NCBI GenBank assembly: GCA_025201365.1
Contig: JAIXMF010000006.1
Span: 744,001 to 808,000 of the forward strand
Direction of reading: 5' to 3'
DNA: 64,000 bases
Origin: Syncephalis plumigaleata
Taxonomy: Eukaryota > Zoopagomycota > Zoopagomycetes > Zoopagales > Piptocephalidaceae
Below the pieces are notes generated by a model. That model searched no databases. It saw only the letters and a program-made list of their open reading frames with translations, and was not told where the DNA came from. The position numbers and the translations under genes are program-made. Shown here piece by piece: positions 1 through 40,776 of this stretch; positions within the stretch are counted from its first letter, which is position 1; every line of letters begins with the position of its first letter.

Positions 1-500
1 TCTGAGGGGCGAAGAAAGGCGGCCATGGATAATAGGAAGGCCGTTTTAATGTTGAGTTTGTGTAGGGAGAGGGTGTCATTGGGAAGGCGAATTGCGTTTA
101 GTGTAGGTGTGAGATCCACTGTACCTCGCTGAAATGCACGCGGTGTTGATGAGCGTTTGTAATTGCGTATTAGTTGAGTGAGGTGGTGATCGTGTTTGAT
201 GGTGTCAGGCGCTTCGTGTAAGTGAGTAACTGCCGCGCGGTAAAGAGCAATAGTGTTTGGTTTGTATCCCTGTGCTTTGGCCTCTGCTAGAAAATTGGCC
301 AGATCGACTGCTGAGAACTGAGTGATGTTGACATTGCGGTCGAAGGCCCATTTAATGAACAAAAGTTGAGCGCGTCTGTATGGAATACGCTTGCCGTTTG
401 TTGTCGTGTCTGATCTCATTAGGTCATTGATAGCGTGTTCCGAAAAACCTAGAGCTGCAAATTTGCGCTTTTGACCTTCCACACGGCTAGCTTCCAATTG
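1..500 (-). CDS. Tyrosine recombinase of the DIRS element (incomplete)
   Basis: A frame that overlaps the 3' end of the RT frame and leaves the window on the left. It reads KRKFAALGFSEHAINDLM, then a core-binding (SAM-like) helical domain with INGK/RIPYRRAQLLFIKW-like and AVDLANFLAE segments, and reaches AAFLRPS, where the first catalytic arginine of the recombinase fold is expected. DIRS elements use this enzyme to insert circular DNA copies. The remaining catalytic residues lie outside the window. Confidence 0.7.
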
Positions 501-3091
501 GGATTTGTCCACGGGTAAATGGCGAAAGGAGTAGTTAGGCGAGTTGTGATGTGAGGGTTGAGTATCATTGGTGGCTGGCAAGCTAGATCCTGTAGCATGG
601 GATACCATATCGCTGACGGCCAGAGCGGAGTGACAATGGTTGCTTGTTGGATCTGCTCGCGCTGGATCTTCTGTAGGCAGCGTTGTATTAGATTCCACGG
701 GGGATTGAGGTACGGATTCTGGAACTGTGTCCACGATATCGATAGCGCATCCGTCTCTATTGCTTCCGGATCCAGCTTCCATGATACATATCGGGGTAGT
801 AAGTTGGACGTCCTGTCCGCAAATAGATCGACGTCGTGTTTGCCCCATTGGCGCTGTATTGAGTTGAATATTTGCGGCTTGATTTGCCACAAATTCTTGC
901 GGTAAAAGTGACGTGACGCGTAATCGGCTTGCACGTTCTCCACTCCCGGTATGTGTTGGGCTTGGATTCTCAGTTCGCGGCGTAAACACATTTGCCATAT
1001 CGATGTGGCGAGTTGGCTGAGCTGACGGGATCGAGTGCCGCCTTGCTTGTTGATGTACGCCATGGCTGTTGTGTTGTCTGTTCGAATCTTGATCGTGCAG
1101 TGGTGTAAGGTGGGGAACGCCTTCAGCGTCAACTGTATTGCTTTGAGCTCGCGCCAGTTGATTGACTGATCGGCTTCGTTGTGCGGCCATAAGCCTTGTA
1201 CCGTTTTGTTCCGGTACACGCCGCCCCATCCCATATCGCTGGCGTCCACGTGTATGGTGTGTGTTGGAGCTGTCGTGATGAGGGACCGACCGTTCCATTT
1301 GCTGAGGTTGTCTTTCCACCACATCAGTTCCTGCGTGCAATCCTGCGGTAACAATTGCGGCTGATCCCATGCTGCTTTGCTGGTGACATGACTGTTCTTG
1401 AAGAACATGAGCGCTTGGGTGTATAGATTTGCCGGGAAGATTGCTAGCGTGGCTGCTTTGATCCGCATGGTGAGACTGTGAATCAAGCGTGGTGTATGCG
1501 ACGTTTTGGTGAGCACCGATTCGATCGACTTGCGTAAACTGCGTAATTTCTTGGAGGGGAGGCGAATCGTCATCGTGTCTGTCTCGATTTGGTAGCCCAG
1601 GTGATCGAGCTTTTGCGTAGGGGTAAGGTGTGACTTCGCCAGTTTCACAATCCAACCTAGAGACTTCAACAGATCGAGAACGAACCTCGTGTTGTTGTCC
1701 GCTTCCTCCTGTGACTTGGATATTATAATCCAGTCGTCTAGATATGCTGATACACGAATTTGATGTTGTCGTATCCATTTGAGGACTGGTTTGGTTAATC
1801 GAGTGAAAATCCATGGGACTACTGACAGTCCAAATGGTGTTGTTCGGAACTGGAATGTCTGTCCTTCCCATTGAAATCGGAGGTATTGACGTGACATTTT
1901 GTGAATGAGGATGTGAAGGAAGGCGTCTGAGATGTCGATTGATGTGAGATAGTCCCCTTGGCGAATTAATGATGTCACCTGCTGAATCGTTTCCATTTTG
2001 AACTTGGGTGGAGCGATGAAAGAATTCAAGGCTTTCAGATTGAACACTGGTCTGAAATCGCCCGTCTTCTTCGGGATGACGAACATTCTGCTGCAGAAAC
2101 CGGGTGTCGAAGGGGCTGGTTCGATGGCTCGCTTCAGCAACAGACTGCTGATTTCCTGTCTGAGGAGGTGACGTTGTTCGGCTGAAAAGGGTACGGTAGG
2201 GAAGGATCGAGTAGTGAGGGGAGGTGGTTTGGTGAAGTGTATGCGGAAACCGTCGCGTACAACCGAGTGCACCCACTTGCTGTCGGTCAAACGCGTCCAC
2301 GCCACATAAAACTTGTGTAGGCGGCCGCCTACTGGTTGTTCTGTGGGTGAGGGCCGTTGTTGTTGTTGTTGTTGCCGGCGTGATTTGGCCCTCGGCGGTT
2401 GTTGTAACCGTGGTGGTTGCCTCTCCTGCCCCGATTCTGGTTGTTGTGTTGCCGTTGAAAATGTTGTGACCCGCCATCTGCCTGTGGCGGGCCTGCACGA
2501 AAAAAAATTTGACTTGTGAGTCAATTTGCGAGGTTTGGCATCCGCGACTGCCTTTCTCTCAGCTGATTGTAATTGTATGGATTCCATAAATTTTGTCGGG
2601 CTCATGGTGTACTCTGCCTCGTGCTCGATCGGCGCTTTAAACGAGGGGTTGACCGCACGTGTCGCCAGATTGTTTCGGGCGTGATTAAGAGTTCCACAAA
2701 GATTCAGCTGTAATGTGCGTATATCGTTGATCATGGTCATTACCCGACCGATGTCATTTGTGGGTAGTATAGATGTTAGAGTGTGAGCTAAAACATCTAA
2801 CGGCCTGAATACCGCTGAAGCTGCGTACTGGGCGTTACGATAATTGGCGTCTTCCGCTCGTTGGGCTGCGGAAAACTGCTTCTGCGCAGGCTCCAGGGTA
2901 TGTGGTGGCTTGTAGGAAACGTCTTCTCTTGCAGGATAGCGTTCGAGTATACGCTTTCTGCTATCCTCCGGTAGAGTTTGCGTGAACAAACTTCTCTGAC
3001 GAAGAGACTCAACGAGCTCGTATAGTCGGTCACTCGGAATCCAATCGTACGTTGGGCGAATAGGTAAGTCGTGTAGTTCGTAATGTTCCAT
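449..3091 (-). CDS. DIRS-type reverse transcriptase / RNase H polyprotein
   Basis: An 880-residue open frame. The first roughly 200 residues are gag-like and unrecognised, followed by a Gln/Arg-rich linker. The RT fingers-palm region follows, with RPVFNLKALN, the SIDISDAFLHI motif and the catalytic YLDDWII. RNase H begins near IHVDASDMGWGGV, with RTDNTTAMAYI further on. The C-terminal part (DVDLFADRTS to YLNPPWNLI) resembles the methyltransferase-like domain of DIRS elements, where a PPW-type motif is usual. The product would copy element RNA in the cell. Treated as part of a mobile element, not a host gene. Confidence 0.85.
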   Translation of the reverse strand: MEHYELHDLPIRPTYDWIPSDRLYELVESLRQRSLFTQTLPEDSRKRILERYPAREDVSYKPPHTLEPAQKQFSAAQRAEDANYRNAQYAASAVFRPLDVLAHTLTSILPTNDIGRVMTMINDIRTLQLNLCGTLNHARNNLATRAVNPSFKAPIEHEAEYTMSPTKFMESIQLQSAERKAVADAKPRKLTHKSNFFSCRPATGRWRVTTFSTATQQPESGQERQPPRLQQPPRAKSRRQQQQQQRPSPTEQPVGGRLHKFYVAWTRLTDSKWVHSVVRDGFRIHFTKPPPLTTRSFPTVPFSAEQRHLLRQEISSLLLKRAIEPAPSTPGFCSRMFVIPKKTGDFRPVFNLKALNSFIAPPKFKMETIQQVTSLIRQGDYLTSIDISDAFLHILIHKMSRQYLRFQWEGQTFQFRTTPFGLSVVPWIFTRLTKPVLKWIRQHQIRVSAYLDDWIIISKSQEEADNNTRFVLDLLKSLGWIVKLAKSHLTPTQKLDHLGYQIETDTMTIRLPSKKLRSLRKSIESVLTKTSHTPRLIHSLTMRIKAATLAIFPANLYTQALMFFKNSHVTSKAAWDQPQLLPQDCTQELMWWKDNLSKWNGRSLITTAPTHTIHVDASDMGWGGVYRNKTVQGLWPHNEADQSINWRELKAIQLTLKAFPTLHHCTIKIRTDNTTAMAYINKQGGTRSRQLSQLATSIWQMCLRRELRIQAQHIPGVENVQADYASRHFYRKNLWQIKPQIFNSIQRQWGKHDVDLFADRTSNLLPRYVSWKLDPEAIETDALSISWTQFQNPYLNPPWNLIQRCLQKIQREQIQQATIVTPLWPSAIWYPMLQDLACQPPMILNPHITTRLTTPFAIYPWTNPNWKLAVWKVKSANLQL

Positions 3092-3250
3092 GCTTGCGAT
3101 GAATAGAGAAATAACGAGTATATATCAATAATAATAAGTATACTTTTGGAGCACTCGTTTCTGGTTTTGACCTGTAAACGAAAAGAAAATGATCAAGGAA
3201 CCAACATATACATGACAGATGTAGCTCCTATTTATAGGAGAAAAGATTTT

Positions 3251-7856: not shown

Positions 7857-8028
7857 TCAAAATAGGGCATATTTATTCAATAAATGATTGAATGGACTTG
7901 TAGATATACTTGTGGTTGTTGTACCAAGTAATAATGACTTGAATGACATGGACACTAAAGGGTCTTGCACCAATACATTCTTGACTTGAATACCTATAAT
8001 ATCTACTTGATGATGTCCTTGTCTTGTT
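7857..8028 (-). other. Gene A terminal exon (coding or 3' UTR)
   Basis: Begins after the acceptor ATGATTACAG. Skipping its first base, it is open for 56 codons (TRQGHHQVDIIGIQ ... LLNKYALF) to a TGA shared with gene B. Against arm 2, the ten substitutions I count fall at codon positions 1/2/3 as 4/1/5 and the only indel is one codon, which suggests coding constraint. However, the frame starting at its first base is also open for 47 codons. How it is joined to the codon series is unresolved. Confidence 0.5.
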
Positions 8029-8087
8029 CTGTAATCATAATGGATTAGTATGGGTATGATCATTGTGGATTATCACCTCACCATTCC

Positions 8088-11000
8088 TCAAGATGTCTTA
8101 ACAATTGACGTGTATTCCATTACAATTAATGCGGTATTTGTTATCGTCATACTGCCAACTTACAAGCTATCATACAATCATACGCATATCGTATCGTACA
8201 TTGATTGTAATCAGTGTATAGCCTATGATAATCGGAAAGATAACTTACAATCTGATGTATGTCAGCATACGTGGATAACATCCCCCATTGCAATGAGTAA
8301 TGCATATACATTGATTGACATGCCCACTTACTTCCTATTATTATTATTATTACAATCCACATGAATTGAGTATCACATTATCATTGAGTGATCATACACG
8401 GTCATCGGAAATACCAGCTTACTTGCTATTCGATATGATTGTATCGGATTGCATATCGCACATCGATTAGTCGTACATCATGCATCGTGACTATGCCTTC
8501 TTTCGACTTACATCCTGTGTTGTGCCATTGTGAATGAGCCATGTTACATGTTGCTATCAATGAATCATCCATCGTAGTCGAGATGATAGCTTACTTTCTA
8601 TTGCCCATCATTGTATATTAGTCAAGTCGTATTGCATTTAGCATAGCATAGCTTGTCATCAATCCATTGACTTGCCTCCTGTTGTATGTGATTATGCATG
8701 GATTGCATGTCGTATTGCCATTAGCACACGACATATCACGATCGAATCACTGGCTTGCCTTCTGTTAATCCGGTAATACGTGAATCGTATGCCACATATC
8801 GTCATTAGCATGCCATACATAAAATGAAAAATACTATCCTACTTTCTTCTATCATACATGATCGTACATAAATTATACGACACGATACAGTTAGTTCACC
8901 GTATACCTTAATTGCTATATTAGCTTACTCGCTGTCATGTATCATCATAGGAAGACCATATGTTAATTGCAGTTGGTTCACCATATGGTAACAATCATTC
9001 TATTAACCTACTATCTGTCATTCATGAACACATGCGAATTGCATGTCACATCGCAATTAGTCCATCGTATGAGGTAAGCACTACGCCAACTCACCAGCTG
9101 CCATGCATAATCATACAAAATTCGTGGCATTATAATTAGCTTATCGCACGCTGCGACAAATATGTTTGTTTACCAGCTGTCATTCGTGATCATTCATGAG
9201 TTGTATGCCAATTTATAGTTAGTTCACCGCATGTTAAATCGTGTACGTTAACTTACTTCCTGTCACATATAATCATATAGGAATCATATTCCGCTCTACA
9301 ATTAATTCGTCGTATGCTGTACTCATTATGTTAATTTACCATCTGACATTAATAAAAAATGCATCAAGCATATGGCCGAGTTACAATTAGTTTGTCGTGT
9401 GCTATGATCGATGCGTTAACTTACTTCCTGTCGTGTGTAATCATGCGGGAATTATATTTCGATTTACAATCAGTTCATTGCCTGGTGCAATCACTATGCT
9501 AACTCACTTTCTGTAGTGAGTAATTATACGGGAATTGTATGATGTACCATGATCAGCTCATTGTATGCTATGGTCAACGTGCTAACTCACTTTCTATCGT
9601 TCATAACCATATGCGAATTGTATGTCATATTGCAATTATTATCTTGTGTACTACAATCAAAATACTAGCTTACCGACTGATGCGCATAATCACATAGGAA
9701 TTGTATGACATAGCACTATTAGTGTATCGCTTGCAGTACCCATTATATTACATTACCACCTGATATACATAATCATATAGAGAGTTTATGTCAATTACAA
9801 TCAGTTCATTGCACGTCATAGTTGTATATTGACTTACAGTCTATCATGCATAAGCATAGATTGACGATGTTTTACACAATAATTAGTTTATCATATGTTG
9901 TGGCCACTCTGCTAACTCACTCTCTATCATTCGTAATCATACGGAAATTATATGCCGCAATACAATTAGCGCATCACTCATTGTCATCATAACACTAGCT
10001 TACTCTTCGCTGTACGCATTCGCATGCAGATCACATGTAACACTCCTATTAGTGCACTGTCTATTGTCGTTATAATGCTGGTTTACCTTCTGTTGTACGT
10101 GATAGTATGTGGATTGATTGTATTCCACACTCCAATTAATGTCTCGTATGCTTCAATCGAAATGATAACTTACGGCCTAGTGTATTCCATAGTCATAGGT
10201 GAGCTACATTTTGGGATTGTAGTCCATGTGTCAACTTACACTCTATGTTGTGTGATCACCATACACACACGTATATGAATTGTATGTTCATTATGATTAT
10301 TGTGATTATTATTAGAATGCTAGCTTACATCTTTCTGCATGTGTTGTCACAAGTCAATCATGCATCATGCTACAATCAGCATATCGTATTCTATAGTCAT
10401 CATAATGACTTGCCTCCTATTATTTGTAATAATAAATAAATAAATAGATACTATGATTAGTATGCCGTATACTGACACTAGAATGACAACCTACAATCTA
10501 TGTCGTGTAATCATCCATCATGAACCATGTTCATCATTTCGATTAACACATCACATATCACGATAGGAATGTCTAGTTACCCTCTGTTACATGGAAGCAT
10601 ACATGAATCATCAATCAATTTGTAATTAACCGATCGCACATTGCAATAATCATTACTTACATACTATTACTCGTAATTATATGTGAATTGTATGCCATAG
10701 GGTAATGAGTACATCGACTAGTAAGACTGGAATGTCAACTTCTTACAATCTATTATGCATATATATATATGTGTGATGCATTGCTATTAACACTTTATGC
10801 ATTAGTATGGAAATGTCCACTTACATACTAGTGCAATCATATGCAAAGAGAATGATGGTTGTTGTTGTTGTTAGTAGTACATTATACGATGATGCTAGAT
10901 TAACAACTTACATCCTGTTACAGGTCATCGTACACGTATCATGACATGTCAACTTGTAATGAGCACATCGTATGCTATGATCGAAATGATCACCTACATG

Positions 11001-11702
11001 CTGTCATGTGTGTGTGTGTGTGGAATGACAAGTGAAGTAATTGTGCCATTGCAATTAGCATGACGTATACTGCAATCAGAATACCGCCCACTTACAATCT
11101 ATTACGCGTCATCATCGGTGAATCGAATGCCACATTCCAACGAGTGCTCGCTTACCCACTAATGCATGCAATCATACGTGAATCAAATGGCTCATTACAA
11201 TGATACTAGTAGCTTACGTGTTCCTATGCATGATAATCATACGGGAATCGATTGCCACATTCCAATGAGCGTATGGCATTGGATCATCGTGATTCACAAC
11301 TCACCTCCTATCATACGAGTATTGCAATTAGTACGTTGTATGTTTATTTAGACAGAATATCAACTTACGTCTGCTTCTATAATAGTGACATATGATTTTG
11401 ATTTACATTCCAGTCAACACAACGTATGTCATGCTCACTCGTTGTTTAACTCACCAGCTATGATTGACAGCATCATATGTGGCATCATCATCAGTATCGC
11501 AATCAATGTCATACAATATAGACTTACCATCTATTGATTGTCATTAGAAAGACCATTAGATAGTAGTATTACGATTAGTATGTTGACTAGTATCGATGAT
11601 GATGATGATGATAGAAATACCAGGGGAATTTGATGATATGGATGTTGTAGCATTGACTATAGGCTGGCTGTTATTGTTATTGTTATCAGCAGATGATTCC
11701 AT
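8088..11702 (-). CDS. Gene A: protein encoded by ~42 mostly single-codon exons
   Basis: Transcribed leftward from a TATAAATA box. A first coding exon (11621-11714) starts at the ATG at 11702 with MESSADNNNNN and ends one base into a codon. The next micro-exons ATG, CTG and a 2-nt AC (or 8-nt AAGCAGAC) restore phase 0. From there nearly every exon is exactly 3 nt, bounded by YAG and GTRAGY (three GC donors), with introns close to 80 nt. Joined, they read EEHWIHDYIYRIE, KDSAKRRR, TVSKKEMELL, IRKKKEKDQEIL with no stop; the other two phases meet stops. The 3' end is uncertain: an in-frame TGA (8088-8090) ends the reading if a further exon begins after TTAAG at 8097. Otherwise splicing continues to the terminal exon at 8028. 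I recognise no family; the sequence is acidic/Asn-rich, then basic and helical. No protein or transcript evidence is available here. Confidence 0.7.
8164..9923 (-). other. Gene A micro-exons 21-42 (half that differs from gene B)
   Basis: In transcription order with lowest plus-strand coordinate: AGA 9921, ACT 9838, GTG 9757, TCG 9674, AAA 9591, AAA 9508, GAA 9425, ATG 9340, GAA 9257, CTG 9174, CTG 9095, ATA 9012, CGA 8929, AAGAAA 8843, AAG 8759 (GC donor), GAG 8676 (GC donor), AAA 8595, GAT 8512, CAA 8423, GAA 8332, ATT 8249, CTT 8164. Successive starts are 83 nt apart in most steps (80-nt intron plus one codon). Codons are Lys/Glu-rich, giving a basic, helix-prone stretch. Confidence 0.8.
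8167..11527 (-). repeat. Tandem family of ~80-nt introns (arm 1)
   Basis: All introns of gene A look like copies of one sequence. Each opens with GTAAGTTAGCAT-like sequence, has a GCATACGATGA-like block and a CTAAT branch-type motif near the middle, then ATTCACGTATGATTATG and ends in ATGACAG/GATAG/CATCAG. The family is not seen in introns of the other genes in the window. Unit length is strikingly constant at 83 nt between about 8759 and 10087. Confidence 0.85.
10004..11530 (-). other. Gene A micro-exons 1-20 (half conserved with gene B)
   Basis: Exon (coding-strand sequence) and lowest plus-strand coordinate, in transcription order: ATG 11528, CTG 11455, AAGCAGAC 11369 (or only AC 11369-11370), GAG 11305, GAACAC 11218, TGG 11156, ATT 11096, CAT 10998, GAT 10912, TAT 10825, ATT 10747, TAT 10661, AGG 10581, ATT 10495, GAG 10414 (followed by a GC donor), AAAGAT 10329, AGT 10240, GCC 10174, AAG 10087, CGAAGA 10004. 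From TGG onward only two bases of 51 differ from gene B (CAT/CAA and CGAAGA/CGAATA). Confidence 0.8.
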
Positions 11703-11847: not shown

Positions 11848-11855
11848 TATTTATA
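11848..11855 (-). promoter_or_regulatory. TATA box of gene A
   Basis: TATAAATA on the minus strand, conserved in arm 2. An ATG follows five bases after the box (possible small upstream exon ending CATCATCAG before a GTGTGT donor), but the spacing favours transcription starting just after it and translation from the ATG at 11702. The first intron has a (TTTG)n pyrimidine-rich tract (11735-11766 region). Confidence 0.55.
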
Positions 11856-35108: not shown

Positions 35109-38100
35109 ATGGAATCATCTGCTGATAATAACATAATAGCCAACCTATAGTCAATGCTACAACATCCGTATCATCAAATTCCACTGGTATTTCTATTATC
35201 ATCATCATCATCGATACTAGTCAACATGCTAATCGTAATACTACTATCTAATGGTCTTTCTAATGACAATCAATAGATGGTAAGTCTATATCGTATGACA
35301 TTGATTGCGATGCTAATGATTATGCACATATGATGCTGTCAATCATAGTTGGTGAGTTAAACAACGAGTGAGCATGACATACATCGTGTTGACTGGAATG
35401 TAAATTAAAATCATATGTTACTATTATAGATCAGACGTAAGTTGATATTCTGTCTAAATAAACATACAACGTACTAATTGCAATACTCGTATGATAGGAG
35501 GTGAGTTGTGAATCACGATGATACTATGCCATACACTCATTGGAATGTGGCAATCGATTCCCGTATGATTATCATGCATAGGTCTGTAAGCTACTAGTAT
35601 CATTGCAATGCCATTTGATTCACGTATGATTGCATGCATTAGTGGGTAAGCGAGCACTCGTTGGAATGTGGCATTCGATTCACGATGATGACGCGTAATA
35701 GATTGTAAGAGGGCGGTATTCTGATTGCAGTATACGTCATACTAATTGCAATGGCACAATTGCTTCACTTGCATTCCACACACACACACACACACACACA
35801 TGACAGCAAGTAGGTGGTCATTTCGATCATAGCATACAATGTGCTCATTACAAGTTGACATGTCATGATACGTGTACGATGACCTGTAACAGGATGTAAG
35901 TTGTTAGTCTAGCATCATCGTATAATGTACTAATAACAACAACAACATCATCATTCTCTTCGCATATGATTGCACTAGTATGTAAGTGGACATTTCCATA
36001 CTAATGCATAAAGTGTTAATAGCAATGCATCACACACACTCATACATACATAATAGATTGTAAGAAGTTAGCATTCCAGTCATACTAGTCGATGTACTCA
36101 TTACCATATGGCATACAATTCACATATGATTACGAGTAATAGTATGTAAGTGATGATTATTGCAATGTGCGATCGGTTAATTACAAGCTGATTGATGATT
36201 CACCATGCATCCATGTAACAGAGGGTAACTAGACATTCCTATGGTGATATGTGTGATGTGTTAATCGAAATGAGGAACATGGATCATGATGGATGATTAC
36301 ACGGCATAGATTGTAGGTTGTCATTCTAGTGTCAATATACTGGCATGCTAATCATAGTACTTGTTTATTATTACGAATAATAGGAGGCAAGTCATTATGA
36401 TGACTATAGAATACGGTATGCTAATTGTAGCATGATACATGATTGACTTGTAACAACACATGCAGAAAGATGTAAGCTAGCATTCTAATAATAATCACAA
36501 TAATCATAATGCGACGTACAATTCATATACATATATATATATATATATATACGTGTGTATGTGTGTATGGTGATCACACAACATAGAGTGTAAGTTATCA
36601 CGTGGACTACAACCCTAAAATGTAGCTCACCTATGACTATGGAATACACTAGGCCGTAAGTTATTATTTCGATTGAAGCATACGAGACATTAATTGGAGT
36701 GTGGAATGCAATCAATCCACGTACTATTACGTACAACAGAAGGTAGGCTAGCATGTTAATGACAATAGACAGTGCACTAATAGGAATGTGGCACATGATC
36801 TGTATACGATTATGCACAGCGAATAGTAAGCTAGTACTATAATGACAATGAGTGATATGCTAATCGTGACGTGGCATGCAATCCATATGCATTTATGAAT
36901 GATAGGGAGTAAGTAAACATACAGATTTCACCATGCGATGAGCTAATTATATTGTGAAATACACGTATGATTATGAATGGCAGTGGGTAAGTTAGCATAA
37001 TGCCTACAGCATACGATGAGCTAATCGCAAATTGATATACATTTTACGTATGAATACACGTTACAGTTTGTAAGTTAGCATAGAGATTTCAGCATGTGAT
37101 ATGCTAATTATATTGCGAAACTCACGTATGATTACATGTAACAGAGGGTAAATTAATTGTGATTAGAGCATGCAATCAACTGATTATAATTTGGTGGTCA
37201 ATTCAATTATTGCTACATATAACAGAGAGTAGGTTTGCATAGCAATTGTAGCGTACGCTGGGCTAATCGTGAATTAATATATGACTCACTTACACTTATG
37301 CACATCAGGGGGTAAGGCATAATAGTGATTATAGCACACAATGAGCTAATCGCAAACTGGTATGAAATTACTTATGTATACGCACATCAGCTGGTAAGCA
37401 AAAATAGTGACCACATCATACAATGAACTAATTGTAAACTGCTATGCAATTTACTTATGAGTACATGTAACAGAGAGTAAGTTGGCATATGGATTACACC
37501 ATACGACAAACTAATGATAAGCTGGTATGCAATTCACTTATGATCGCATGTAACAGCAAGTAAGTCGGTATGGCAATTACACCATACGATGAACTAATGA
37601 TAGGCTGGTGTACAATTCACTTACGCTTATGCGCATCAGTGGGTGAGTCGAAATAGTGATTGCAACATACGATATACTAATTGTAAGCTTGTATACAATT
37701 CAATTATGATTACATATAACAGGAAGTAAGTCAAAGTAATGATTGCAGCCTACAATGAACTAATCGTAATGCCACGTCTTCTATATGATTATGAATGATA
37801 GGCCGTAAGCTAGCGCCATAATTGCAGCATACGATGCATTAATCGTAATGAATACGACCCATATGTGATTACAAATGATAGGAGGTAAGCTATTATTTGA
37901 TACCAATGCTGAATGAACTCATTGCAAAATGCCCTATGATTCACATATGCTTACATTTAATAGGAGGTAAGCTGGCAGGTTGGTTACAAGATGTGCCACG
38001 CTAATGGTAATGCCATTGAATGATTCACATAAAACTACAAATGTCAGAGGGTAAGCCAGCATTTCAGCTAATTTCCACAGCACATTAATTACATTGTGGT

Positions 38101-38618
38101 ATACTATTGACCGTGGATTGTGTATGAAAGGAAGTGAGTCATCATTCTGATTACAGTCTACGGTATGCTAATCGGAATGTGATATGTGCTTGTATCATTA
38201 TTATTATAGAAAGTAAGCAGACACCGAATGATAATGCATCACGCACTCATTACAATGGGATTACAATCCACGTATAATCATTTACAGAAAGAAGTAAGTT
38301 TTGTCGTTTGATGTGGTCAAGCATCTTGTGAAGCTAATCCACTGTTGTATGGCATAGTTGGAGGCTGAGAATCAACATGTAGGTTGATGTCACGATTACA
38401 ATCTACGGTATACTAATCAAAATATGACAAATGATTAACGTATGGCCACATGATAGCTTGTAAGTTGAAAGTGTCAGCTTATAGACATGAAGCATTAATC
38501 ATAGTGTGACATACAACTCCCGTATGATCATGGATACTAGGATGTAAGCTAGCATTTTTAACATTAATACATCGATCTAATTGCAATACGATGCTCATTA
38601 ATCAAATGATAGACTTAA
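35109..38618 (+). CDS. Gene B: diverged copy of the single-codon-exon gene
   Basis: Mirror copy of gene A, transcribed rightward. It keeps 42 micro-exons, TATA box, first-exon homology (35097-35186) and terminal exon. From exon 6 the joined codons read WIQDYIYRIE, KDSAKRIG, WFRRGLRQW, EAEEREKKE, LEAENQHLD, then ACT TAA (stop at 38616-38618 if the last small exon is used). Only this phase is open. The 5' part is doubtful: the first exon is 4 nt shorter than in gene A and meets a TAG in the frame of its ATG, and exon 5 is GTCT where gene A has GAACAC. Gene B may be a partly decayed copy, may start elsewhere, or may carry assembly indels. The C-terminal half resembles a coiled coil; no family recognised. 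Confidence 0.55.
35277..36825 (+). other. Gene B micro-exons 1-20 (conserved half)
   Basis: Exon and start: ATG 35277, TTG 35349, ATCAGAC 35430 (or only AC 35435), GAG 35498, GTCT 35582, TGG 35643, ATT 35702, CAA 35807, GAT 35893, TAT 35979, ATT 36057, TAT 36143, AGG 36222, ATT 36310, GAG 36384 (GC donor, as in gene A), AAAGAT 36466, AGT 36587, GCC 36653, AAG 36740, CGAATA 36820. Reading exon 3 as the 2-nt AC after CAG makes both copies agree and gives phase 0 in gene A. Confidence 0.75.
35280..38612 (+). repeat. Tandem family of ~80-nt introns (arm 2)
   Basis: Same intron family as arm 1. Typical members between 37070 and 37730 share GTAAGTTAGCAT, an ATTACACCATACGATGA block, CTAATGATAAGCTGG or CTAATCGCAAA, then CAATTCACTTATGATTAC and end TAACAG or CATCAG. 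Within the arm, neighbouring introns are clearly related but not identical, so the tandem amplification is old relative to the duplication that made the two arms. Confidence 0.85.
36906..38618 (+). other. Gene B micro-exons 21-42 (divergent half)
   Basis: Exon and start: GGA 36906, TGG 36984, TTT 37067, AGG 37145, AGA 37226, GGG 37309, CTG 37391, AGA 37474, CAA 37557, TGG 37640, GAA 37723, GCC 37802, GAG 37882, GAG 37964, AGG 38048, GAA 38131, AAA 38210, AAAGAA 38288, a 21-nt exon 38358-38378 encoding LEAENQH, CTT 38457, GAT 38541, and ACTTAAGCA 38613 (uncertain). Step size is 78-84 nt, with a run of 83s from 37391 to 37723. Confidence 0.8.
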
Positions 38619-38675
38619 GCAGTAAGTAACAATCCAAGTAATAATCATACCCATACTGATCCATTATGATTACAG

Positions 38676-38850
38676 GACAAGACAAGGACATCAGCAAGTA
38701 GATATTATAGGTATTCAAGTCAAGAATGTATTGGTGCAAGACCCTCATTTAGTGTCCATGCCATTCAAGTCATTATTCCTTGGTACAACAGCAACAAGTA
38801 TATCTACAAGATCATTTAATCATTTATTGAATAAATATGTCGTATTTTGA
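38676..38850 (+). other. Gene B terminal exon (coding or 3' UTR)
   Basis: Follows ATGATTACAG. In the frame that skips one base it reads TRQGHQQVDIIGIQ ... LLNKYVVF with a TGA at 38848-38850, colinear with gene A apart from one extra His codon. A 2-nt exon CA at 38620-38621 (acceptor TTAAG, donor GTAAGT) would join the codon series to this frame. The equivalent junction in gene A does not work equally well, so the C-terminus stays open. Confidence 0.45.
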
Positions 38851-39274: not shown

Positions 39275-39944
39275 CAAACTTCCGGTGCATGCCATAACAA
39301 TAATCAAGTTCCCATGATAATATAGATAGCGGCAATTTTCTCCTTTTTTTCACGTTTACACGCATTATGAAAGTGCCGTTTAGCTTGTACCCGCATTTAC
39401 GGAATAGCCATATTTGGAGGACATAACACATGGCATACAATTATGACACGAGGAGGTATAGAATAGGAAACTGCCCTAGTTAGAAAACCCCTTCAGAAGA
39501 ACGCTAGGCCAATTTCTTTATTCCTAAAATGTCAATCAATCCATTTAGAGATAAATTGCTGTATATAAATGGTAATTCCTTTTTAGTCCACTACAAATAC
39601 TAATATTCTGTAATGCCAAATATTAGTAGCAAGCAATACTTGTCCTACCGTTTATTTGTTGTATTGAGGCCTTAAGGTTCTCCCCATTTAAACGGTAGCT
39701 CCGTTAGTTTGGTATTCCGCATAAAGACGAATACATGTGTTTGTTGTTTCATCATCTACCCTCTCTCTCTTCTTCTGCTTATTCGCGTTATCCATTACGG
39801 TAGAATTGATTTATATCTGGCATGCAACAATGCGCGAATTCCCCAATGTCATTATTCAACTTTTAATCACTTTTTACGTTACTTTCTCCTCGTTACGACT
39901 GCAACGAACGTCGTATTTCTTTCCTTTCATAACAATCAATCACG
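39275..39944. other. Region between arm 2 and the small secreted protein
   Basis: Outside the repeat. No protein-like frame that I trust; a CT-rich leader (39760-39780 and 39840-39940) precedes the next ATG. Not recognised as any mobile element. Confidence 0.4.
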
Positions 39945-40776
39945 ATGACTGGCATTATCAGCAGATTGGTAATAGTAGGATCCCTATTAATGCTAGCATT
40001 ATTACAAATCATCCAAGAGCATGCACTTCAAAGTAATGCCATGCCAATGCCATTGTCTTTTAAATCATCGACATCATCCAAATCTAGCGGAGGGGGTACA
40101 AGCAAGTTTAAACTATTTGGATCATCATCCAGTAGCAGCAGTAGTGGTAGCAGCAGTAGTACTGGTAGTACTGTTGGTAGTAGTGGCGCCTTGGGCCTTT
40201 TAAATAAACTCACGTCAAAAACATCAAGTAAAACGACCAGCTCTACCGATAGTAAGACATCGAGTTCTTCCGATAAAAAGGATCAAGACACAAAACCTGA
40301 CGATAAAAAGGATCAAGATAAAAAGACCGATTTGAAACTTAGCGCTATTTCATTACCACCTGACAGTAGTAGTAAAGGAAGCTCGAAAGGTGGCACGGCC
40401 ATCAAAGGTATAGCCAAATTGTTTAAACCTTCTCACAAGGGCAGTTCAGAGTTGGTTAATTGTCATGATGCAATGAACTCGAAATACTCCAAGGATTCCG
40501 TGTCAATGGTCGGGAATAATCAGGAATTAAAGATAACCTCCAAATGGAGTGTTATAAACGATGGATGTCGAGCTGATGGTACACTCAATGGCACTAAAGT
40601 ATCCATAAAATGCAAGTCTGGCACTGCAATTACAAGTTTCCTGAGCATATTTAAAGGAGCGGTAAGTGACATGGCGTCGTATACTAGCATGATATTAGCA
40701 TGATATTAATAGTGACTTGTTTGTATAGGAAAAAGCATCGTTCGAACATAAAAAGTACAAATGCTCCGTGTCCTAA
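39945..40776 (+). CDS. Small secreted Ser/Lys-rich protein
   Basis: Two exons (39945-40661 approximately, and 40731-40776, with a GTAAGT donor and a TATAG acceptor). An N-terminal signal peptide (LVIVGSLLMLALLQIIQ) is followed by a long Ser/Gly/Thr-rich stretch and charged KKDQDTK/DDKKDQDKK repeats. A small C-terminal domain has four cysteines (VNCHDAMNSKY, DGCRADGTLNG, VSIKCKSG, YKCSVS). The last residues come from the second exon and complete the cysteine set, which supports the splice. Unknown function; the form is that of a secreted or wall-associated effector-like protein. Confidence 0.7.

Follow-up and report, generated by a model that had tools for sequence, protein, structure and literature searches.

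The 64,000-nucleotide stretch of Syncephalis plumigaleata DNA analyzed in this study (the window) carries two genes, W1 on the minus strand and W2 on the plus strand, whose predicted exons are mostly three nucleotides (nt) long and are separated by introns of ~80 nt. Syncephalis is a mycoparasitic genus (PMC10386755). A sequence-only reading of this DNA had reported about 40 consecutive occurrences of the pattern YAG-NNN-GTRAGY, and we recovered this series on the minus strand in W1, together with a matching exon series in W2 (Table 1). It is very probable that both arrays belong to a large S. plumigaleata gene family in which an intron follows almost every codon, and whose transcripts are spliced to messenger RNAs (mRNAs) joined mostly from single codons.

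Table 1. Coordinates of the W1 and W2 features in the window
Feature	Positions	Strand	Basis
W1 candidate TATA box, TATAAATA	11848..11855	-	sequence; TATAAAT in related array genes
W1 first coding exon, MESSADNNNNNSQPIVNATTSISSNSP + 1 nt	11621..11702	-	parse; start of public model P0123 (tblastn)
W1 array: 36 of its 42 micro-exons measure 3 nt, and 33 of its 43 introns 76-88 nt	8164..11530	-	chain parser
W1 8-nt exon AAGCAGAC, setting phase 0	11369..11376	-	P0121 and P0122 read DAEAD; intronless L063 has GCAGCC
W1 6-nt exon AAAGAT (KD)	10329..10334	-	intronless relative has AAGAAG (KK)
W1 candidate 15-nt last internal exon ACATCTTGAGGAATG	8082..8096	-	parser call in L014, not in W1
W1 3' terminal exon (AACAAGACAAGG...) to AATAAA signal at 7877-7872	7872..8028	-	sequence, family search
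W2 first coding exon, 4 nt shorter than that of W1	35109..35186	+	sequence comparison
W2 array: 35 of its 42 micro-exons measure 3 nt	35277..38621	+	chain parser
W2 3' terminal exon to AATAAA signal at 38830	38676..38835	+	sequence

Exons were called with a chain parser that weights all exon lengths from 1 to 30 nt alike and that uses splice-site matrices trained on 177 family sites taken at 3-nt spacing. Since the length range is flat and the matrices are family-trained, the arrays are favored by the site scores rather than by a length prior. Unanchored best chains for the W1 and W2 arrays score 663 and 661, whereas their reverse complements reach only 11 and 13. In 22 control scans (11 window segments of 3.6 kb, both strands), no chain scored above 29 and only one of 21 internal exons was 3 nt long. 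Array scores this far above the controls demonstrate that the pattern is not due to chance.

Of the W1 micro-exons, 36 measure 3 nt, four 6 nt, one 8 nt and one 25 nt, which agrees with the earlier description of ~40 tiny exons whose exceptions are mostly 6 nt long; the 25-nt call is probably an exon GTG followed by a weak donor (GTAATG). Two lead-ins into the array had been proposed, with exons of either 1+3+3+8 or 1+3+3+2 nt. The 8-nt version is preferred on the basis of the intronless relative L063 and public gene models, and the 2-nt version (AC), considered here since W2 shows 7 nt at this place, was set aside. Near the opposite end of the array, W1 has the letters ACATCTTGAGGAATG between AAG and GTGAGG, as in the 15-nt exon called in the related locus L014. 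L063, which bears on this candidate exon, ends with CATATTGAAGAGTG and then proceeds directly into AACAAGACAAGG.

W2 is probably a decayed copy despite its retained splice sites. Its short first exon places the gene out of frame, and its array includes frame-breaking exons of 7 nt and 4 nt (GTCT near 35582) as well as a 21-nt exon, TTGGAGGCTGAGAATCAACAT. The decayed reading rests on the short first exon and on these 4-nt and 7-nt micro-exons.

Elsewhere in the window, an 891-codon stop-to-stop open reading frame (ORF; 449-3124, minus strand) resembles by eye a reverse transcriptase that includes an RNase H-like part. The window also contains a mitochondrial carrier gene, which matches an S. 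plumigaleata protein at 93% identity over 95% of the query. Beside W2, a serine-rich ORF with a hydrophobic N-terminus (39933-40703, plus strand) possibly represents, again by eye, a secreted protein. Rfam and tRNA searches of the 64-kb window returned no match.

Conservation and reading phase across the family

A DNA search of the 32.6 Mb assembly yielded at least 156 matches, and at least 150 genome matches to the 3' exon part were obtained with a joined-protein query. Among 13 longer copies, 554 of 679 parsed exons are 3 nt long and 646 are multiples of three; if L033 is omitted, whose parse contains junk, these values become 488 and 563 of 587. Exons of 18 to 27 nt appear late in the array of some copies, and a narrower parser (15-nt exon limit, strict acceptor matrix) overlooks 6-nt and 21-nt exons. 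Resemblance to the family 3' exon was also observed for P0125, a predicted protein on a 3631-base metagenome contig (63% identity over 36% of the query, E 0.019), and by this likeness the family may occur in a second organism. Four proteins, either joined or from intronless copies, were searched against Pfam, and no family exceeded its cut-off.

For 26 loci that can be aligned across the first 20 micro-exons (a near-identical partial copy, L019, was dropped), the mean pairwise difference is lowest at the splice sites, with values of 0.007 for GT, 0.018 for AG and 0.026 for donor positions +3 to +6. Larger values are obtained for the first coding exon (0.061), introns (0.073) and micro-exons (0.169), and the largest for the upstream leader (0.274), of which there are unrelated versions. 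When the annotation was shifted circularly, none of 1593 shifts matched the joint GT and AG value of 0.012, and all 1593 fell below the micro-exon value. The low diversity of splice sites combined with the high diversity of micro-exons indicates that the splice sites are under selection while the codons change. At 16 of the 3-nt exons examined per position, exon bases differ at 0.08-0.13 and the following six bases at 0.00-0.04. Some positions 25-33 nt inside the intron reach 0.13-0.19, and variability is therefore not confined to the exons.

The micro-exon diversity does not in itself demonstrate positive selection at the amino-acid level, because the excess over introns appears in synonymous and non-synonymous classes alike (pS 0.218 and pN 0.160, versus 0.073 in introns). 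This excess is found mainly in the last six of the 20 compared codons; the first 14 (EEHWIHDYIYRIEK) give a pN of 0.081 and a pS of 0.168. Certain micro-exon codons (e.g. AGT, ACG and GAT) differ between loci at several bases simultaneously, compared with a difference of ~7% in introns. At the 5' ends of L017 and L026, homology to W1 and W2 is lost upstream of the CTCTTTTTATT leader, where the sequence differs as if promoters had been exchanged.

It had also been claimed that the joined codons remain open in only one phase, and this holds across the family. After the phase-setting exon, the predicted phase contains no stop among 1042 codons, whereas the other two phases contain 43 and 130 stops among 1015. 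This count covers 27 parsed entries that represent 26 loci (L030 and L036 are the same place), and leaves out exons that are not a multiple of three as well as terminal TAAGCR exons; the codons of related copies are not independent, and thus the count is not a probability. Stops in the phase of the 3-nt exons are present where the last internal exon ends TAA-GCR, as is evident in L002, L031, L003, L004, L032 and W2 (in W2 this exon is ACTTAAGCA). The further claim that each exon is a whole codon is correct for most exons after the 8-nt exon and fails toward the 3' end of certain long copies, where another 8-nt exon, AATAAAGG, alters the phase such that the subsequent 3-nt exons are split codons.

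Intronless relatives and public gene models

The most informative relative was found with a 334-nt joined complementary DNA (cDNA) of L034. Among the best 40 of 191 candidates, matches are confined to either the first or the 3' exon, apart from one that covers positions 222-332 at 73% identity. This match, L063, is a single intron-free ORF of 131 codons (MRSLSNNTNISSRNMVKDASVSSTFPDAAAEQPWIQDYIVRVRKKSAK...LQAANQHLDLFGAAAFEKRQKDRSVRRRIMKFFHIEE) that is followed directly by the family 3' exon, and its codons run in the same order as those of the micro-exons when joined (W|I|Q|D|Y|I|V|R...). Products of the WIHDYIYR type had been anticipated from the codon string, and the intronless relative indeed reads DAAAEQPWIQDYIVRVRKKSAK within its unbroken frame. 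L063 carries residues where W1 exons have the atypical donors GTAGGT, GTAACT and GCAAGT, at the places of the 6-nt exon AAAGAT and the 21-nt exon, and at the AATAAAGG exon with its following triplet exons, provided that these are read as split codons. The portions of six predicted proteins that follow the first exon score 88.5-166.5 against L063, compared with maxima of 56-77 from 500 shuffles each. L063 is thus what a spliced message would be expected to look like, but seen in DNA.

Public gene models exist in GenBank for these loci and agree in part with this reading. For the model P0121 (BDF22DRAFT_655023), 88 of its 98 residues can be accounted for by 39 exons of the L032 parse taken in order, 27 of which are single codons, whereas the best of 300 shuffles places 9 residues. 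The W1 model, P0123, begins with the W1 first exon and contains EADEEHWIDYIY.

A second branch of the family shares the 3' exon with the window genes and has a different first exon (e.g. MKFSAVLAIAVAVVALTSLVAVEAKPTRMRRR), followed by an array of the same kind. At least 150 matches to this first exon were obtained, at least 105 of them at E<=1e-6. Micro-exons are present in all 11 loci read in which the branch first exon meets an intron (L038-L042, L046-L048 and L060-L062); the last three are short and were assessed solely by their motif counts of 2, 3 and 4. Judged by eye, the branch N-terminus MKFSAVLAIAVAVVALTSLVAVEA is signal-peptide-like with a dibasic site. Proteins of the W1 branch instead start with MESSADNNNNN and lack such a segment. 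The signal-peptide-like branch may encode secreted effectors.

Among the joined products of this branch are RRAVVERRAPNPLPDSKASQQGQGHP, read by eye from L047, and PCIKISNRCCYENSDKPGTLFCDDR, a peptide of L048 with four cysteines. Parts of L039, L046 and L047 were parsed incorrectly, and for L039 and L047 the exon choices were made by eye instead. In the frame that their first exon establishes, the joined strings of L038 and L040 soon run into a stop. For L038 (G000:C35:478500-488400, minus strand), a whole-codon reading gives LLNCKGGFQECRDF and then a stop.

Of 14 places where the first and last exons of the branch lie seemingly close together, ten are intronless, three are the short arrays L060-L062 and one is uninformative. 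We read 12 intronless copies (L035, L036 and L049-L058), which include three near-duplicate pairs and several broken frames. When L047 is joined over CTG, TTG, TCGAAC, GCC, GTG, CTC and CAAATCCTC, the result matches L051, L052 and L036 at 29 of 30 nt. Exact exon joining is therefore evident at the nucleotide level for these three copies, and at the protein level for L063. The motif TATAAAT lies upstream of all five branch array genes for which 230 base pairs (bp) are available, and is absent from all three intronless copies with 230 bp of upstream sequence. Intronless copies that lack the promoter motif are suggestive of reverse-transcribed messages. The intronless copies read show no clear poly(A) tail downstream of AATAAA, and some of them share their 3' flank beyond this signal with array genes.

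Proposed splicing and alternative explanations

The introns of the arrays form one family of ~80-nt sequences with a GTAAGY donor, a CTRAY motif that would serve as branch point and a YAG acceptor. A consensus, GTAAGTtAtCATtcTgATtacAatatAtGAtgtACTAATtacAATaTGacAtAcgATtCACgTATGaTTatgtATgAtAG, is shared by 314 introns, 222 of which contain CTRAY, most often with the A 43 nt from the intron end (106 cases). In a profile search of the window at E<=0.01, all 74 intron matches fall inside the two arrays; this profile was built in part from those same arrays, and the informative result is the absence of matches from the rest of the 64 kb. A conserved intron hairpin was considered and dismissed (stem length 4.96 versus 4.93 in shuffled sequences). 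Array growth by recent tandem duplication of intron-plus-codon units is not supported, since neighboring units are no more alike than units two or three apart. Identical neighboring codons number 16 against 13.8 expected, a value reached by 598 of 2000 shuffles and therefore not an excess.

Intron definition is usual for short fungal introns. We propose that transcription begins, probably, near the pyrimidine-rich leader, and that the spliceosome would recognize the introns one by one in this manner and remove ~43 of them (about 76 in L034), thereby joining mostly single codons. An acceptor and the next donor that are 3 nt apart can hardly both be occupied, and so removal would probably be stepwise, with each event lengthening the exon. 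It is plausible that neighboring introns are removed in sequence, and we infer this order from the exon spacing. The spliced mRNAs would sometimes be copied back into the genome to give rise to the intronless copies. In the signal-peptide-like branch, the segment with the dibasic site would come from the first exon and a short peptide from the string of codons, and the products may be secreted proteins aimed at the fungal host.

Several observations weigh against this interpretation. A number of family copies look decayed. Clean products, with predicted lengths of 81-145 residues, are obtained from seven of the 13 longer copies under the broader parse, leaving W1, L005, L010, L032, L033 and W2 without one. 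W1 yields an unclean product of 57 residues at its doubtful 25-nt exon, and its tail ends unlike that of L063. Some of these failures are parser artefacts (GTAA, AA and GG in L032), whereas W2 is truly shifted. First exons of the wrong length occur in four of the 26 loci (W2, L007, L012 and L036), the start codon of L021 is missing one base, frame-breaking micro-exon lengths were called in L006, L007, L011, L021, W2 and L035, and the parser picked an exon TAA in L039. Furthermore, pN is not above pS in the micro-exons (0.160 versus 0.218). Among the public models, P0123 reads through parts of four introns, and P0121 skips 16 exons of the L032 parse before the last one matched, including CAT, AGG, ATT and GAG, although codons are present there in L063.

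One alternative is that the arrays are a non-coding minisatellite of intron-like units, in which splice-like motifs persist by descent and the joined codons are meaningless. The units do share an intron consensus (similarity 0.521 versus 0.455 when shuffled), the family is dispersed in the fashion of a repeat, and several copies are frame-damaged. This explanation is nevertheless extremely unlikely, given that the string of joined codons recurs in intronless relatives, with L063 having it as a single long ORF, that this string is stop-free in a single phase only, and that splice sites are conserved far more than introns. We hold it to be refuted by L063, L036, L051 and L052. The arrays could alternatively be transcribed but removed in large steps, from the first to the last exon or with most micro-exons skipped, such that the codon string is rarely translated. 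Exons of 3 nt give scant room for adjacent splice sites to be bound together, nearly all of them are frame-neutral and so can be skipped without harm, the omissions in P0121 fit such events, and in L053, an intronless copy, the first and last exon are separated by no more than a very short string. Long strings in L063 and in most of the 12 other intronless copies make this quite improbable, as does the conservation of donors and acceptors across the 20 units tested.

A less easily discounted alternative, which we still regard as unlikely, reverses the direction of change: intronless genes would be ancestral, and the arrays would have arisen by a burst in which one intron family inserted at nearly every codon. 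That the introns form one family accords with this possibility. Unit similarity at increasing steps is flat (0.551, 0.552, 0.552 and 0.543), as independent insertions predict, and neighbors that carry the same codon are no more alike. The 3' flank shared past AATAAA by some intronless copies and arrays, and the lack of a clear poly(A) tail, point the same way. However, the distribution of TATAAAT, present in 5/5 arrays and 0/3 intronless copies, is that expected of mRNA-derived copies, and exact 3-nt spacing would be hard to achieve via random insertion. We therefore favor the direction from array to intronless copy.

If the arrays are spliced as proposed, each codon could be a genetic module. 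Because almost all exons are 3 nt long, codons could be skipped, gained, lost or exchanged without loss of frame. The family might then act as a codon-by-codon generator of protein diversity that the mycoparasite uses on its host, by combinatorial splicing, by exchange of units between copies, or by both. This functional proposal is tentative, and we consider it rather doubtful.

Should the predicted splicing prove real, an acceptor and donor only 3 nt apart would test the limit of spliceosome fidelity, with 40-odd precise removals required for each short protein. Intron definition and the order of splicing could be tested directly in this system, which would also illustrate how a gene comes to be filled by a single intron family. 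It would further caution that the annotation of effector-like proteins in such fungi may be poor. The presence of intronless copies in the same genome allows the claim to be checked from DNA alone.

Comparison with known systems

We found neither a gene with tens of consecutive 3-nt exons nor an account of this family in the open-licence literature. The closest likeness is to the micro-exon genes (MEGs) of schistosomes and tapeworms. A published structural rule calls for at least seven exons, at least half of them <70 nt and divisible by three, in a run of at least four (PMC7653826). By this measure 40 of the 44 exons of the W1 model, with its first and last exon included in the total, are of this kind (36 of 3 nt and four of 6 nt) and lie in long unbroken runs; the exons are predicted from DNA. 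MEGs likewise combine many consecutive micro-exons divisible by three, a parasite, a multigene family and difficult annotation (PMC10526429, PMC7653826). They also have a signal-peptide exon (PMC10526429, PMC7653826), for which one branch here offers a candidate judged by eye. Their exons are given as mostly 15 bp (6-81 in the text, 3-81 in the abstract), with 10-20 exons per gene and introns of 0.1-5 kb (PMC10526429, PMC7653826). In contrast, the S. plumigaleata genes are those of a fungus and have dominant 3-nt exons and ~43-76 introns, which are ~80 nt long and belong to a single sequence family; this places them outside the schistosome kind. No MEG or bicycle gene appeared among the matches of two family searches, and the distinction from MEGs is drawn from their descriptions.

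Microexons of RPS24 are reportedly another example of isolated ultra-small exons. Exons of 1-5 nt are known to be spliced in such genes, and intronless homologues are known or were used as proof; 1-nt exons are described for Arabidopsis APC11 and Fusarium CYP621A (PMC12940212, PMC8831610). These cases involve one or a few exons per gene, as opposed to the tens of consecutive exons observed here.

The bicycle and megacycle genes of aphids, compared here by their published description, resemble this family as putative effectors with many small internal exons of a single phase. They are insect genes with exons far above 3 nt, as in a megacycle gene with 118 exons for 2092 amino acids (PMC9168663). 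Nearly all bicycle internal exons are of phase 2 (PMC9168663), whereas most introns here lie between whole codons after the 8-nt exon and, in some long copies, split codons after AATAAAGG.

Features of processed gene copies are likewise apparent, as evident from the absence of the arrays in L063, L036, L035 and L049-L058, from the exact joining in L036, L051, L052 and L063, and from the absence of TATAAAT in all three copies with 230 bp of upstream sequence. Introners also consist of many similar spliceosomal introns within one genome, but are spread over many genes genome-wide (PMC9860276). For the intron family described here, the profile matches within the 64-kb window are confined to the two arrays.

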